From: Dehalococcoidia bacterium
GTDB taxonomy: Bacteria > Chloroflexota > Dehalococcoidia > DSTF01 > JACRBR01
Length of the DNA: 64,000 bases
Direction: 5' to 3'
Assembly: GCA_021462855.1 (NCBI GenBank)
Contig: JAJTXQ010000020.1
Coordinates: forward strand, 62,001-126,000
Positions 1,845 to 8,662 of this stretch are shown piece after piece; position 1 is the first letter of the stretch; each line of letters begins with the position of its first letter. Under the pieces are notes generated by a model. That model was given only the letters and a program-made list of their open reading frames with translations. It was not told the DNA's origin and searched no databases. The position numbers and the translations under genes are program-made.

Positions 1845-4073
1845 CTAGCTTGAGAGCGTGCTGGCGGCGAGTTCGACTTCGCCTGCGACCGCGCCGGCAT
1901 CGGCGGCGTGCCGCGCGACCGCGAAGTCGTACACGCCCGCGTCGACGACCCAAGCGTCGCCGACGCGTACCGCGAGGCGTGAGAGCGGCGCGGCCAGTTC
2001 GACCGCGACCGAGCCGGAGGGCGGCACATCCACGCGCGCGAACGCCACGAGCCGTCGGCGCGGCCGTTCGCGGACGGGTTCGCGCGGGCCGGCGTACACC
2101 TGGACCACCTCCGTGAGGGGCGCCGAGCCAGTGTTGCGCACCCGCGCGCGGACGACGACCGCATCGCCGTGCGCATCGACGGTCACGCCGTCGATGCGCG
2201 GCGGTTCGCCGTACGACAGGCCGTAGCCGAACGGGTAGCGCGGCGCGTGGCCGTCGCGGTCGAGCAGCCACTGGCCGTGGAACAGGCCGTACGTGATCGT
2301 CGTCGCGTCGCGGTCGAAGTGCGGCAGATGCGTCGCGTCGCGCGGCACGGCGAACGGCAGCCGGCCGGCGGGCTCGACGCGCCCGAGCAGCACGTCGGCG
2401 AGCGCGTGGCCGCCCTCCATGCCCGGATACCACGCCATGAGGATCGCTGCGGCGTCGTCGTGCCAGCCCTCGACCATGATCGCGCTGCCGCCCATCATCA
2501 CGACGACTGTCGCGGGATTCGCCGAGGCGGCGGCGCGGATCAGCGCCTGGTCCGCCGCCGACAGGTCGAGCGACGCGCGGTCGCCTCCCATCGCGAACCC
2601 CTGGCCCGCACGCTGCGCGGGTTGCTCGCGTGGCGGCCGTGGTGGCGCGTCGGGCGGCGGGGACGGTCGCCCGGGCCGCGGCGGCGCCAGCGCTATGAAC
2701 AGCTCCGGCTGCGCGGCGATGTACTCGCCCTCGTCCTCGTATGTGCAACCGACGACGACGATCGCGACGTCGGCGTTTCGGGCGATGCGCGCGGCTTCGT
2801 CGAGGTCGGCGCCGTCCGCGGCAGCGATGTCCGCATCGGGCAGCGCGGCGCGCAACCCGTCGAGCGGCGTCACGACCGACGGCGGGACGACGTTGCTCGA
2901 CCCGCGGTCGCCGAGGTTCGGCGCTGAAGCAAGCCGGCCGAGCACGGCGACACGCTTCAACGACGCCGCGTTGAGCGGCAGCGCCGGACCGGCGCCGCCC
3001 GCCGGCTCGTTCTTGAGCAGCACGATCGACTTCGCCGCCGCTTCGCGCGCCAGCCCGCGGTGTTCGTCCGATGCGCAGACCGCAGTGTCCGGCGCCGGCT
3101 GCGACAGCACCGCGTCGAACCGCAGCAGCGTCGAGACGACGCGCGTCACGGGCGCGTCGACGCCTGCCTCGGTGAGCTCGCCGCTCGCCAGGGCAGGCGG
3201 CAAGTGCTGCATCCGTTGCTGCCGGAACGGCATTTCGATGTCGAGGCCCGCGCGCACCGACTTCACGGCGTCTCGCAGCCCGAAGATCCAGTCGCTGATT
3301 ACGAATCCGCGGAATCCCCACTCGTCGCGCAGGATCTCCGTGAGCAGCGCGTGGTTCTCGCCGCACCACGCGCCGTTGACCGAGTTGTACGCCGACATGA
3401 CGCACGCGACGCCCTCATCGACGACGCGCTTGAAGTGCGGCAGGTACACCTCGTGCAGCGTGCGCCCGTCGGCCTGCACGTCGATCTTGAAGCGAGCGTT
3501 CTCGATCGAGTTCAGCGCGTAGTGCTTTACGCACGCCATCGCGTGGCGCTGCACGCCGCGCGCGAGCGCCGCGCCCATCTCGCCGACGTGGTGCGGGTCC
3601 TCGCCGTACGTCTCCTGCGCGCGGCCCCACCCGGGATGCCGCAGCACGTTCACGTTCACGCCGCCGAAGAGGTTCGCGCCGCGCGCGCGCAACTCACGCC
3701 CGATCGCTTCGCCGATGCGCTCTTCGAGCGCCGGATCGAATGTCGCGCCCCGCGCCATCGACACCGGGAAGCAGGTGTTTGGCCCGACGGCTACCCCGCG
3801 CGGCCCGTCGGAGAACGCGATGCCCGGAAATCCGGTGCGGTCGAGGCGCGCGCCGATCCACGGCTCGCGGCTGTACCCGTCGCCGGCCGCCACGGCGGCG
3901 CCGCCGGCCATGCGCAGCAGTCCGGGCCAGAACTCTTCGTCGCCGTCCAGGCACCAAAGTTTCTCGTCGAGCGTGAGGCCCGCGACGAACGCGCGGGCGA
4001 CGTCGCCCGCGTCTTCGCCGGCGCGCACACGCGCGCGCGCGTCATCGAATGTCATGGTCTCGGCGGATGCCAT
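1845..4073 (-). CDS. Glycoside hydrolase family 3 beta-glucosidase
   Basis: This 742-residue protein has the usual length and domain order of GH3 beta-glucosidases: an N-terminal TIM barrel, a C-terminal alpha/beta sandwich, and a fibronectin III-like tail at about residues 635-730. Visible family motifs are SDGPRG (88-93), ETYGEDP (154-160), KHY (183-185, substrate-binding Lys-His) and GFVISDW (256-262), whose Asp261 is the predicted nucleophile. No signal peptide is seen, so it is probably cytoplasmic and acts on imported oligosaccharides by releasing glucose or a related sugar. A proline- and arginine-rich insertion of about 30 residues (near 467-500) interrupts the second domain and is unusual. 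The start could be ATG 4073 or the ATG six codons later; no strong SD separates them. No sugar transporter is nearby. Confidence 0.92.
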   Translation of the reverse strand: MASAETMTFDDARARVRAGEDAGDVARAFVAGLTLDEKLWCLDGDEEFWPGLLRMAGGAAVAAGDGYSREPWIGARLDRTGFPGIAFSDGPRGVAVGPNTCFPVSMARGATFDPALEERIGEAIGRELRARGANLFGGVNVNVLRHPGWGRAQETYGEDPHHVGEMGAALARGVQRHAMACVKHYALNSIENARFKIDVQADGRTLHEVYLPHFKRVVDEGVACVMSAYNSVNGAWCGENHALLTEILRDEWGFRGFVISDWIFGLRDAVKSVRAGLDIEMPFRQQRMQHLPPALASGELTEAGVDAPVTRVVSTLLRFDAVLSQPAPDTAVCASDEHRGLAREAAAKSIVLLKNEPAGGAGPALPLNAASLKRVAVLGRLASAPNLGDRGSSNVVPPSVVTPLDGLRAALPDADIAAADGADLDEAARIARNADVAIVVVGCTYEDEGEYIAAQPELFIALAPPRPGRPSPPPDAPPRPPREQPAQRAGQGFAMGGDRASLDLSAADQALIRAAASANPATVVVMMGGSAIMVEGWHDDAAAILMAWYPGMEGGHALADVLLGRVEPAGRLPFAVPRDATHLPHFDRDATTITYGLFHGQWLLDRDGHAPRYPFGYGLSYGEPPRIDGVTVDAHGDAVVVRARVRNTGSAPLTEVVQVYAGPREPVRERPRRRLVAFARVDVPPSGSVAVELAAPLSRLAVRVGDAWVVDAGVYDFAVARHAADAGAVAGEVELAASTLSS

Positions 4074-5587: not shown

Positions 5588-6238
5588 TCAACCAAACACG
5601 ACCTCGTCCGGCTTCGTCAGGAAGGCGTGGACGAGTCCAGCCACGGAGAGCACCAGCATGACGCCGGCCAGGATGAACAAGACGTTCGCAGCGAGGCCTG
5701 CCTTGTCGCCGAAGATGCTGAAGCCGTATGTCGTGAGCAACAGGCCACGCAGCGTTTCGCCGGTCTGGAACGTGCTGCGCAACTGGGTTGCCGCGTCCAG
5801 CTGCTTCTTCGCCTCGATCGTCGCGGGATCGTCGGCTCCCTTGCCGGCGAGCGCTGCGTCGTACGACTTTTGAAGTGCGCTGCGCTTCCCGCCCATCGTC
5901 GCGTACGTATCGTCGTTGTACGTCCCTGCCGGGTATGCCTCCGCCGCGGATCGACGCATGTGCATGGCGATGAAGTAACTCGCGTAACACTCCGCCTGCG
6001 CGCCCGTCTCCATCTGCTTGCCGGCGTTTTCGACAAGGCACTTCGAGCCCGGCTTCCACGTCTTCTCTTCCTCGGTCAGCTCAGTGGCGAACGTGATCCG
6101 CTGCGCGCCAAGTTCCGTCTTCACGTAGTCCTTCGCGAAGTTGTACTGGTCGCGCGCCACGCATCCCAGCACGACAAGCAGGGCCACAAGCAGCAGTCCT
6201 CCCCCGGCGAATGTGAAGTCCAGCGTTCTTCGCTTCAC
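5588..6238 (-). CDS. Uncharacterised membrane protein with a large exposed domain
   Basis: I do not recognise the family. The 216-residue protein has an N-terminal membrane segment at about residues 10-28 (ending LGCVARDQ), an exposed polar domain with several cysteines (residues 30-150), and a C-terminal hydrophobic part at about 160-207 that could form one or two membrane helices. The start is GTG 6238, preceded by GGAGG 8 bases upstream. The exposed domain carries Cys at about 68 and 84, possibly a disulfide. The LGC could suggest a lipobox but the preceding residues fit it poorly. It overlaps no neighbour; its function is unknown. Confidence 0.7.
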   Translation of the reverse strand: MKRRTLDFTFAGGGLLLVALLVVLGCVARDQYNFAKDYVKTELGAQRITFATELTEEEKTWKPGSKCLVENAGKQMETGAQAECYASYFIAMHMRRSAAEAYPAGTYNDDTYATMGGKRSALQKSYDAALAGKGADDPATIEAKKQLDAATQLRSTFQTGETLRGLLLTTYGFSIFGDKAGLAANVLFILAGVMLVLSVAGLVHAFLTKPDEVVFG

Positions 6239-6680
6239 GGCGATCCCTCCAGCCTCTCGAGCGCCATCGCCCGTTTACGCCCGCGGCGCCTGTTGCTGCG
6301 GGACAACTTCATGATGCGCCCGCCGGATCCGGCGATCCACACCCGTTGCGCACAGGCGCGATGTACCGATAGGCAAGCACCGGCACAACCGGCGCGCGGC
6401 GTGGAACGCAAGCAGTGATTGCCCGGACAACGGCCCGTACGAGCACCGGAAAGGGCCGCGCCAAGAAACGCCGCGCGGCCCCGTTGGAGTCGTGGTGGAG
6501 ACGGGGGAGTGCCCGCCTCGCCGCCCCCATCCTGGTTTTCGTATCTACGAACGACCGCCGTTCGCGGCCATCATCACGGATTCTGAGCCGCTCCCAACAC
6601 GCGGTGCAGAGCGCCGAACGGACAGCCGTCGCGGCTAGCGAGGGTAGCGCGCCGTAACTCTAGATTGCTCGTGCAGCTAC
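6239..6680. other. 442-base stretch without a supported gene
   Basis: No convincing reading frame is seen. It contains an 18-bp copy of the tmRNA 3' end (6492-6509, listed separately), a GC-rich inverted repeat ggccgcgc/gcgcggcc around 6450-6478, and the short palindrome TTCGTATCTACGAA near 6538. On the minus strand it follows the lactonase gene, so it may hold that gene's 3' untranslated region and the promoter of the membrane protein gene that starts at 6238. Confidence 0.6.
6492..6509 (+). repeat. Displaced copy of the tmRNA 3' end (candidate att site)
   Basis: The 18 bases gtggtggagacgggggag are identical, in the same orientation, to 7689-7706, which encode the CCA end, acceptor strand and part of the T arm of the tmRNA. 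The flanks differ at once on both sides. tmRNA 3' ends are classic targets of site-specific integrases, which leave such a duplicate on the far side of the inserted DNA. Confidence 0.6.
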
Positions 6681-7634
6681 TCAGTATCCACCTTGCGCCT
6701 CGAAGATACGTCGAGGGTTGTCGACGGTCATCTGCGTGACCTGCTCCTCCGACACACCGGCCGCGCGCAGCGCCGGCAGAACATCGTTCGGGATATGCAG
6801 GAAGTGCCAGCGCGGCAACGCCTCGCTGACCAATCCAGGCTCGAACCAGTCGATGTGGCAGCATGTATCGTGGGAGAGAACCATCTGATCCGCATGCCCG
6901 CGCTCGCACAGCTTCGCGATCGTGGCGACCCGCTTTTCCATCGGCAGGATGTTGTCGATGCCGAAGCGATCCATCCCTATGTAGGATCCCCGCGCCATTA
7001 ACTTCTCGAGATAGACGATGTCCTCCGTGTCGCCGCTGTGCCCAATCACGGTACGTCGGAGATCGACCCCCTCAAGCGCGAAGATGTCCTGCTGACGGAG
7101 GCCCTGCTCGGAGAGGGCGTGCGTGTGCGTCGAGATCGGCACGCCCGTCCGACGGTGTGCGAGGGCGACGGCGCGGAGCACCTTTTCCACACCGGGCGTC
7201 ACACCTTGGTGATCCGTGGCGCATTTTAGAATGCCTGCGCGGCTCTCAGTCCCCTGAATCCCTTGTTCGATATCGGCGACGAACTGCTTCGCCATCGCCT
7301 CTGCATCGCGCGATTGAAAGTACGATGGCACGTCATCGTGGGTTAACAGTCCCGTCGCGACGATGATTTGGATGCCAGACGCCGCCGCTACATCGCGCAC
7401 GGTCGCCACATCTCGTCCGAGGCCCATCACCGTGAGATCCACCATCGTCTGCACGCCGTGTGCGTTGGCTTCCCGCATCGCGGCGATCGCCGCTGCAACT
7501 CGCGCCCCGCGGTTCCATAAGCGAGGAAAGTTGGCGTTGAGTCCTTCCGTCAACACGAACACGTGCTCGTGCATCAGTGTGAAGCCGAGCTCAGACGTGT
7601 CGATAGGCCCGGTGACGGTCTCAACGGTCGCCAT
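6681..7634 (-). CDS. Phosphotriesterase-family metal hydrolase (lactonase-like)
   Basis: The 317-residue protein has the metal-binding signatures of the phosphotriesterase family: MHEHVF near residue 21 (HxH), the bridging Lys of AGILKCATD, His in STHTHA and VIGHSGD, and Asp in LSHDTCC. These ligate two metals in a TIM barrel. Most close relatives are lactonases for acyl-homoserine or other lactones with weak phosphotriesterase activity; the substrate here is not determined. The start ATG 7634 has AAGGAG 6 bases upstream. Base use differs from its neighbours: three 60-base lines counted (6961, 7261, 7441) are 53, 57 and 67% G+C, against 77% in the smpB line at 8221. The gene starts 56 bases past the tmRNA 3' end and is followed by a copy of that end, so it may have been acquired. 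Confidence 0.88.
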   Translation of the reverse strand: MATVETVTGPIDTSELGFTLMHEHVFVLTEGLNANFPRLWNRGARVAAAIAAMREANAHGVQTMVDLTVMGLGRDVATVRDVAAASGIQIIVATGLLTHDDVPSYFQSRDAEAMAKQFVADIEQGIQGTESRAGILKCATDHQGVTPGVEKVLRAVALAHRRTGVPISTHTHALSEQGLRQQDIFALEGVDLRRTVIGHSGDTEDIVYLEKLMARGSYIGMDRFGIDNILPMEKRVATIAKLCERGHADQMVLSHDTCCHIDWFEPGLVSEALPRWHFLHIPNDVLPALRAAGVSEEQVTQMTVDNPRRIFEAQGGY

Positions 7635-7688
7635 GGCGCTCCTTGGTGCGAAAGGCGGCCCGCCGAACAGCAAGCCGCCGATTTGGTG

Positions 7689-7706
7689 GTGGTGGAGACG
7701 GGGGAG
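7689..7706 (+). repeat. tmRNA 3'-end copy of the 18-bp direct repeat
   Basis: It is identical to 6492-6509 and lies within the T arm, acceptor strand and CCA end of the functional tmRNA. The two copies bound about 1.2 kb holding only the phosphotriesterase-like gene. Confidence 0.6.
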
Positions 7707-8037
7707 AATTGAACTCCCCGTCCAGGCGGGCAACGCCCTGGGTCTGCTACAGGCTTATTCCCGCAGGTTGGTCTCGCTCCGGCGTGCGCTGAGGTCCGCC
7801 CGGACGGAGCCAGCCGATGGTCTTGGTCGCGCGATATCGGCGTCGCGCGCGAAGCATCCCGGCTTTGCATCGCTCATGCCCCGCCCGCCGGGAGTGGACG
7901 GGGATGAACGTCACTGCTTACGCAGCGAGGGCGAGTTGTCGTTCGCCGTGTATGGTTTGGCCGCGTATTAAGGAGGTTGCGACCGTCCTCCGCCTGCAAC
8001 CCAGATCCGCCGACCCCTGTCGAGCCCTTTCGTCCCC
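7690..8037 (-). ncRNA. ssrA: tmRNA (transfer-messenger RNA)
   Basis: The minus strand begins GGGGACG (8037-8031) and ends CGTCTCC-ACCA (7700-7690), which pair as a 7-bp acceptor stem with one G-U. The T arm (GGGGAG, TTCAATT, CTCCCC) precedes the 3' end and ACCA is encoded. The tag frame at 7947-7918 reads GGC GAA CGA CAA CTC GCC CTC GCT GCG TAA, that is GERQLALAA, ending in the LAA-type degron read by ClpXP. tmRNA rescues stalled ribosomes together with SmpB, whose gene lies 166 bases upstream on the same strand. A TATACT hexamer (8077-8072) is a possible -10 of a precursor transcript. Length is 348 nt, normal for one-piece tmRNA. Confidence 0.95.
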
Positions 8038-8203: not shown

Positions 8204-8662
8204 CTATCGCACGCTGTGGCGGAGCGCGCGCTGCATGTCGCGGTCGGCCTCGCGGCGCGCGATCGCCTGGCGCTTGTCGTATTGCTTGCGGCCGCGCGCC
8301 AGGCCGAGTTCGATCTTGACGCGGCCGTCCTTGAGGTACATCGTCAGCGGGACGATCGTCAGGCCTTTCTCGGCCATTGCCGCGGCCCACTCGCGGATCT
8401 GCGCGCGGTGCAGCAGCAGGCGGCGCGGGCGCGTCGGCTCGTGGTTCACGTAGCCGCCGGCGCCGTAGGGCGCGATGTGCGCGCCGTACAGCCACATCTC
8501 GCCGTTCTGCGGCCGAGCGTACGCCTCGCGGATGCTCGCGCCGCCGGCGCGGATCGACTTGATCTCGGTGCCGAGCAGGGAGATGCCGGCCTCGATCTTC
8601 TCGACGATCTCGTAGTCGTGGAACGCCTTGCGATTGGCGGCGACCTGCTTGAACTCGGCCAC
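8204..8662 (-). CDS. smpB: SsrA-binding protein SmpB
   Basis: The 152-residue protein matches SmpB in length and pattern: N-terminal NRKAFHDYEIVEKIEAGI, the GTEIKSIRAG segment, ENGEMWL-like QNGEMWLYGAHI, and a basic C-terminal tail (LGLARGRKQYDKRQ onward), which folds into the ribosome's mRNA channel. SmpB is an OB-fold protein that binds the tRNA-like part of tmRNA and brings it to stalled ribosomes. The ATG at 8662 lies only 5 bases past the ctpA stop, so the two are probably co-transcribed, and the tmRNA gene follows on the same strand. Confidence 0.97.
   Translation of the reverse strand: MAEFKQVAANRKAFHDYEIVEKIEAGISLLGTEIKSIRAGGASIREAYARPQNGEMWLYGAHIAPYGAGGYVNHEPTRPRRLLLHRAQIREWAAAMAEKGLTIVPLTMYLKDGRVKIELGLARGRKQYDKRQAIARREADRDMQRALRHSVR

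Follow-up and report, generated by a model that had tools for sequence, protein, structure and literature searches.

The window (the whole 64 kb stretch of DNA that was analysed) contains an intact tmRNA gene (ssrA, with the tag GERQLALAA) at 7690–8037 on the minus strand, which was located with ARAGORN and matched RF00023 with 114 bits at G000:C13:69690–70037 of the host genome. The 3′ end of the tmRNA plus one base forms one copy (7689–7706, plus strand) of an 18 bp repeat, and the other copy (6492–6509, plus strand) is a displaced tmRNA 3′ end. In a sequence check of the 64 kb window the original prediction of identical 18-mers in the same orientation proved to be exact, and the same-orientation match widened to 20 of 21 bases at 6489–6509 and 7686–7706. 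ARAGORN agreed with the further claim that the second copy is the CCA end and acceptor strand of the tmRNA; the repeat is made up of the T-stem 3′ strand (CTCCCC), the acceptor 3′ strand (CGTCTCC), the discriminator A, CCA and one extra base. With up to three mismatches allowed the 18-mer was found at two places in the 64 kb and none of 100 shuffles yielded two, which bears out that a chance origin is unlikely. A 17-mer core searched with up to one mismatch was found at two places in the 3.02 Mb genome, on the 6492 side and the 7689 side only. From this exact and genome-unique repeat the proximal copy was annotated as the attL core and the distal copy as the attR core. The locus thereby bears two marks of an island: an intact ssrA at one end and, downstream, a displaced 3′ fragment in direct orientation.

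Inside attL lies a side sequence (7643–7688, minus strand) with a GC hairpin (stem at about 7654–7679) 3′ of the tmRNA, annotated from its fold and a match to a flank in genome G001; inside attR lies a recombination arm (6510–6576, minus strand), annotated from its matches to two element ends on G001 contig C395. Outside attR a hairpin at 6452–6482 (minus strand) is, by its position, a candidate for the original ssrA terminator, its fold being weak (z −0.8). The conserved side upstream of ssrA carries smpB (8204–8662, minus strand; PF01668). The first left-flank gene outside the element (5588–6238, minus strand) encodes a 216-residue protein with no Pfam match, which was left without a family assignment.

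Cargo gene

A single open reading frame, at 6681–7634 on the minus strand, lies between the repeats, as had been predicted. It starts about 56 bp past the tmRNA end, in the direction of ssrA, and encodes a metal hydrolase of the phosphotriesterase (PTE) family of 317 amino acids. The PF02126 profile was matched over 298 of its 298 positions (E = 2e-100), indicating a full-length member of the family, and the metal-binding motifs HEH22, LKC136, THTH169, IGH197 and SHD254 were all present. The nearest solved structure is that of a phosphotriesterase homology protein (PDB entry 4if2; E = 4e-120); none of the NCBIfam equivalog cut-offs was reached by the protein. Lactonase action on quorum signals is possible for the PTE family and is a putative activity here.

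The G+C content of the gene (62.1%) is the lowest among the 36 open reading frames of at least 250 residues in the window (mean 69.3, s.d. 2.6), a comparison set that includes spurious frames. The prediction of low G+C therefore stood, but the value of 77% for smpB with which it had been contrasted was wrong: it came from one sequence line, and the entire smpB gene has 69.9% G+C. The GC3 of the PTE gene is 76%, versus 96% in its orthologues in G004, G006 and G007. These three genomes, from one sister genus, carry the orthologues (73–77% identical) away from ssrA, and no repeats clearly framing the gene were found in them. The G004 copy (L171) has no flanking DNA in common with the G006 and G007 copies (L172 and L173), as if the gene moved alone or its surroundings had been rearranged. 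The closest PTE relatives belong to the bacterial family of the host. Viral contigs contain no relative of the gene, and plasmid relatives are all less than 60% identical; a viral origin and carriage on a plasmid were accordingly rejected. The cargo is misplaced and compositionally atypical, yet taxonomically not foreign.

Element ends and recombinases in relatives

The gene order smpB–ctp–GGDEF (where ctp is the carboxy-terminal protease gene) upstream of ssrA was kept in six relatives. The downstream side varied from genome to genome in the loci fetched and contained neither a left-flank gene nor the cargo gene; varying content and synteny at ssrA among relatives are a further mark of an island. 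A PTE gene beside ssrA was absent from all of the ssrA loci of the family that were fetched. No relative had the left flank of the 6492 side at ssrA, and the same flank with a single core was seen in no searched genome; since the left flank is common to no relative, the empty site was not seen directly. The sole relative of the 216-residue flank protein (81%) is encoded in G005 (contig C17), away from ssrA, across a tRNA-Arg gene from a DsiB-like recombinase (L155). At this locus (L155:4430–5919) the serine recombinase stops just short of the tRNA-Arg gene (5845–5919, minus strand).

Three further copies of the 17-mer were found in tandem on contig C395 of G001, a genome from a related genus. 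In the direction of ssrA this contig carries a primase-type protein followed by a 1.38 kb unit and a 3.7 kb unit between cores; the ordering of this array with respect to ssrA is inferred, since the G001 tmRNA is on contig C425. The attR arm plus core matched the end of the 1.38 kb unit (G001:C395:5271–5354) with 82% identity over 84 bp (E = 7e-18), and the arm was 73% identical to the end of the 3.7 kb unit (G001:C395:1533–1605). Without the core, the arm gave a local score of 39, compared with a maximum of 17 in 2000 shuffles. The attL inner side plus core matched the start of the 1.38 kb unit with 81% identity over 54 bp; the attL arm alone scored 16, with a shuffle maximum of 16 (p = 0.0005). 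An att arm common to other elements thus lies on the element side of the repeat, again as in an island. Because both inner arms match G001 element ends, the reading as an ssrA element is stronger than it would be from the repeat alone, and by these matches the two ends of the window element are those of a known ssrA element type. Part of the likeness could stem from descent from one old insertion. Both G001 units are without an integrase, and their cargo is unlike the PTE gene of the window: the 3.7 kb unit holds one gene (1117 residues) and the 1.38 kb unit a frameshifted gene of the metallo-β-lactamase fold, read by eye from translated frames.

The window element has no gene between the repeats other than the PTE gene and so lacks both the integrase of its own that an autonomous mobile element would carry and a serine recombinase overlapping attL, the position that the recombinase takes in the Dehalococcoides-type integration module (dsiB, dsiA, parB, mom). 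In G001 and G002 the gene adjoining ssrA encodes a large serine recombinase (Resolvase and Recombinase domains) and runs into the tmRNA 3′ end, as does DsiB of Dehalococcoides (PMC3146451); the elements of both genomes additionally hold a tyrosine recombinase gene. An intact DsiB-like recombinase also adjoins ssrA in G009, which belongs to a different family of the same order. In G003 an ssrA repeat on a separate contig is adjoined by a broken DsiB-like gene in several frames (L154:24–759, G003:C8), and the integrase there appears to be decaying in situ.

At the ssrA-side end of the G001 1.38 kb unit, an open frame some 60 codons long corresponds to the DsiB C-terminus and occupies the position that this terminus would have in an intact DsiB gene. 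Scored with a profile built from ten DsiB C-termini it reached 17.4 bits, compared with at most 6.1 in 1000 shuffles; pairwise alignments to individual DsiB proteins gave weak matches (p = 0.03 to 0.15), so that the likeness is clear by profile only. As this scrap has been retained, at least one sibling, the 1.38 kb unit, is a deletion product, and internal deletion is its likely history. The best frame of the window copy gave 7.5 bits, which is near noise; internal deletion is likely to be the history of the window unit too, by analogy with the sibling.

No ssrA-type DsiB was found in the host genome (assembly 97.5% complete). The serine recombinases of the host that carry a Recombinase domain are three in number; where they align with DsiB they are about 25–34% identical to it, a low identity for which they were rejected as the missing integrase. 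The one encoded on the contig of the window overlaps a tRNA-Asp gene. A large serine recombinase of the host resembles CcrB (NCBIfam). Outside the window, at L177:2363–3937 (G000:C13), a CcrB-like large serine recombinase overlaps tRNA-Asp (3880–3956, minus strand) with its 3′ end, an anatomy like that of DsiB at ssrA. A second copy of the 32-base 3′ end of this tRNA gene was not found. According to a 2014 paper, tRNA genes were not known as targets of serine recombinases (PMC4383910).

ssrA intervals in the class and known islands

The core was searched for exactly in 393 genomes of the class Dehalococcoidia, and further copies near ssrA were present in many genomes among the matches listed. 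In Dehalogenimonas formicexedens (G215) the search returned 1384280 and 1407215, compared with 1384297–1407259 for the published dcpA island (PMC13390414); this recovery of the island at its coordinates validates the search. Short ssrA intervals of one to several genes and without a DsiB match were found in G013, G014, G017, G025, G138 and G188, and likewise in G291, G376, G389, G392 and G001, although the tmRNA is not on the same contig in every case and short intervals are over-represented because the majority of the assemblies are fragmented. Their genes include those for a HicB protein, a BrnT-like toxin with a CopG-like antitoxin, an ArsP_2 exporter, DegV with glycerol-3-phosphate acyltransferase and a radical SAM enzyme.

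Three of the loci had features of their own. Seven tandem ssrA core copies extend across 116 kb at G030:C1:1376493–1492663, resembling the island arrays of Dehalococcoides. At L165:2158–5447, which encloses BrnT-like toxin, CopG-like and TPR genes, a near-identical terminator-like hairpin follows each copy, and the repeated unit is therefore longer than the 17-mer. At L146:3561–4858 (G025) the second copy includes at least 40 tmRNA bases upstream of the core; the HicB gene that lies within may thus be framed by a more extensive partial duplication of ssrA.

The staphylococcal cassette chromosome (CcrAB) is likewise a cargo-bearing cassette between att sites, but its target gene is rlmH rather than ssrA, and the window element has no ccr-like gene. 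DsiB has been described as CcrB-like (PMC3146451). The closer likeness is to the ssrA-GIs and vcr-GIs of Dehalococcoides (McMurdie et al., 2011; PMC3146451), which have the same target, downstream side and direct repeat of the tmRNA 3′ end; their tandem arrays and ssrA-adjoining DsiB-type recombinase have counterparts here in relatives and sister genera, and 15 of 31 such islands are without the integration module. The window element differs in being a single gene of 1.2 kb in a different family of the class, with a hydrolase as cargo in place of reductive dehalogenases, and inspection of the window repeats by eye did not show, as such, the 15 bp motif described beside those of Dehalococcoides. 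The dcpA island of D. formicexedens and D. alkenigignens is also an ssrA element bounded by repeats, but is 23 kb in length and contains recombinases and a primase (PMC13390414). Islander-type tDNA islands have ends similarly marked by a restored tDNA and a displaced 3′ fragment; an on-board tyrosine integrase gene is required there, whereas the window element has none (PMC4383910).

Origin and significance of the unit

The locus is very probably the remnant of an ssrA-specific island that entered by a DsiB-type recombinase and later underwent internal deletion, with two att sites and one gene left. The integration footprint with a lost integrase that the original prediction had proposed at ssrA is supported, since the end arms match other ssrA elements and neither of the outcomes it had named as contrary was found: the genome-wide 17-mer search gave no third place unrelated to ssrA, and the relatives' ssrA loci do not all carry the lactonase but are without an adjoining PTE gene. 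The window unit is a minimal new case of an already known kind of ssrA island.

On this reading an element with an att site copying the tmRNA 3′ end would have recombined into ssrA, the incoming copy rebuilding the tmRNA while the original 3′ end was displaced to the far side (6492–6509), possibly together with the weak hairpin at 6452–6482, which may be the old terminator. The hairpin at 7654–7679 just past the tmRNA could act as the new one. The inserting enzyme was most likely a large serine recombinase of the DsiB type, as adjoins ssrA in the sister genera. A later internal deletion would have removed the integrase and the rest, and with them presumably the mobility of the unit, so that two att sites and the PTE gene remained.

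Tyrosine integrases are the usual catalysts of integration at tRNA and tmRNA genes (PMC4383910), and the G001 and G002 elements contain a tyrosine recombinase gene. Insertion by such an enzyme instead of a DsiB-type serine recombinase is nevertheless improbable: the site-adjoining gene in the sister genera encodes a serine recombinase, and the arms of the window element match elements of the G001 array. Local duplication, in which a fragment of ssrA was copied beside a resident lactonase gene with no mobile element involved, would be consistent with the exact match of only 18 bp and the orthologues of the PTE gene in the family. It is contradicted by the conserved 67 bp arm outside the ssrA-derived part, the uniqueness of the repeat genome-wide and the fact that the displaced fragment lies in the correct, direct orientation, and is regarded as very remote.

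It is also conceivable, but unlikely, that the unit never had an integrase and is an att-ended gene cassette moved in trans by the ssrA-specific recombinases of other elements. The common ends around different single genes in the window and G001 point this way, as do the integrase-less short ssrA intervals that recur in some ten other genomes of the class. Cis-mobilizable islands that are moved along with their neighbours have been suggested by McMurdie et al. (PMC3146451). The DsiB scrap in the G001 sibling, however, points to deletion, the same cassette was not seen at ssrA with different neighbours in any two genomes, the host now has no ssrA-type DsiB and fragmented assemblies favour short intervals. 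A Dehalococcoidia ssrA cassette system, in which single recombinase-less genes, each flanked by an extra tmRNA 3′ end and a conserved recombination arm, would be gained, lost and exchanged in trans by DsiB-type serine recombinases in an integron-like manner, is similarly doubtful.

With the probable remnant of an ssrA-specific island described here, the island mechanism at ssrA that was known from the dechlorinating Dehalococcoides reaches a further family of the class, and a minimal 1.2 kb unit is available whose two ends have been mapped. The same ends occur in a related genus together with other cargo and an intact recombinase, which makes any continued mobility of integrase-less units, in trans, directly testable.
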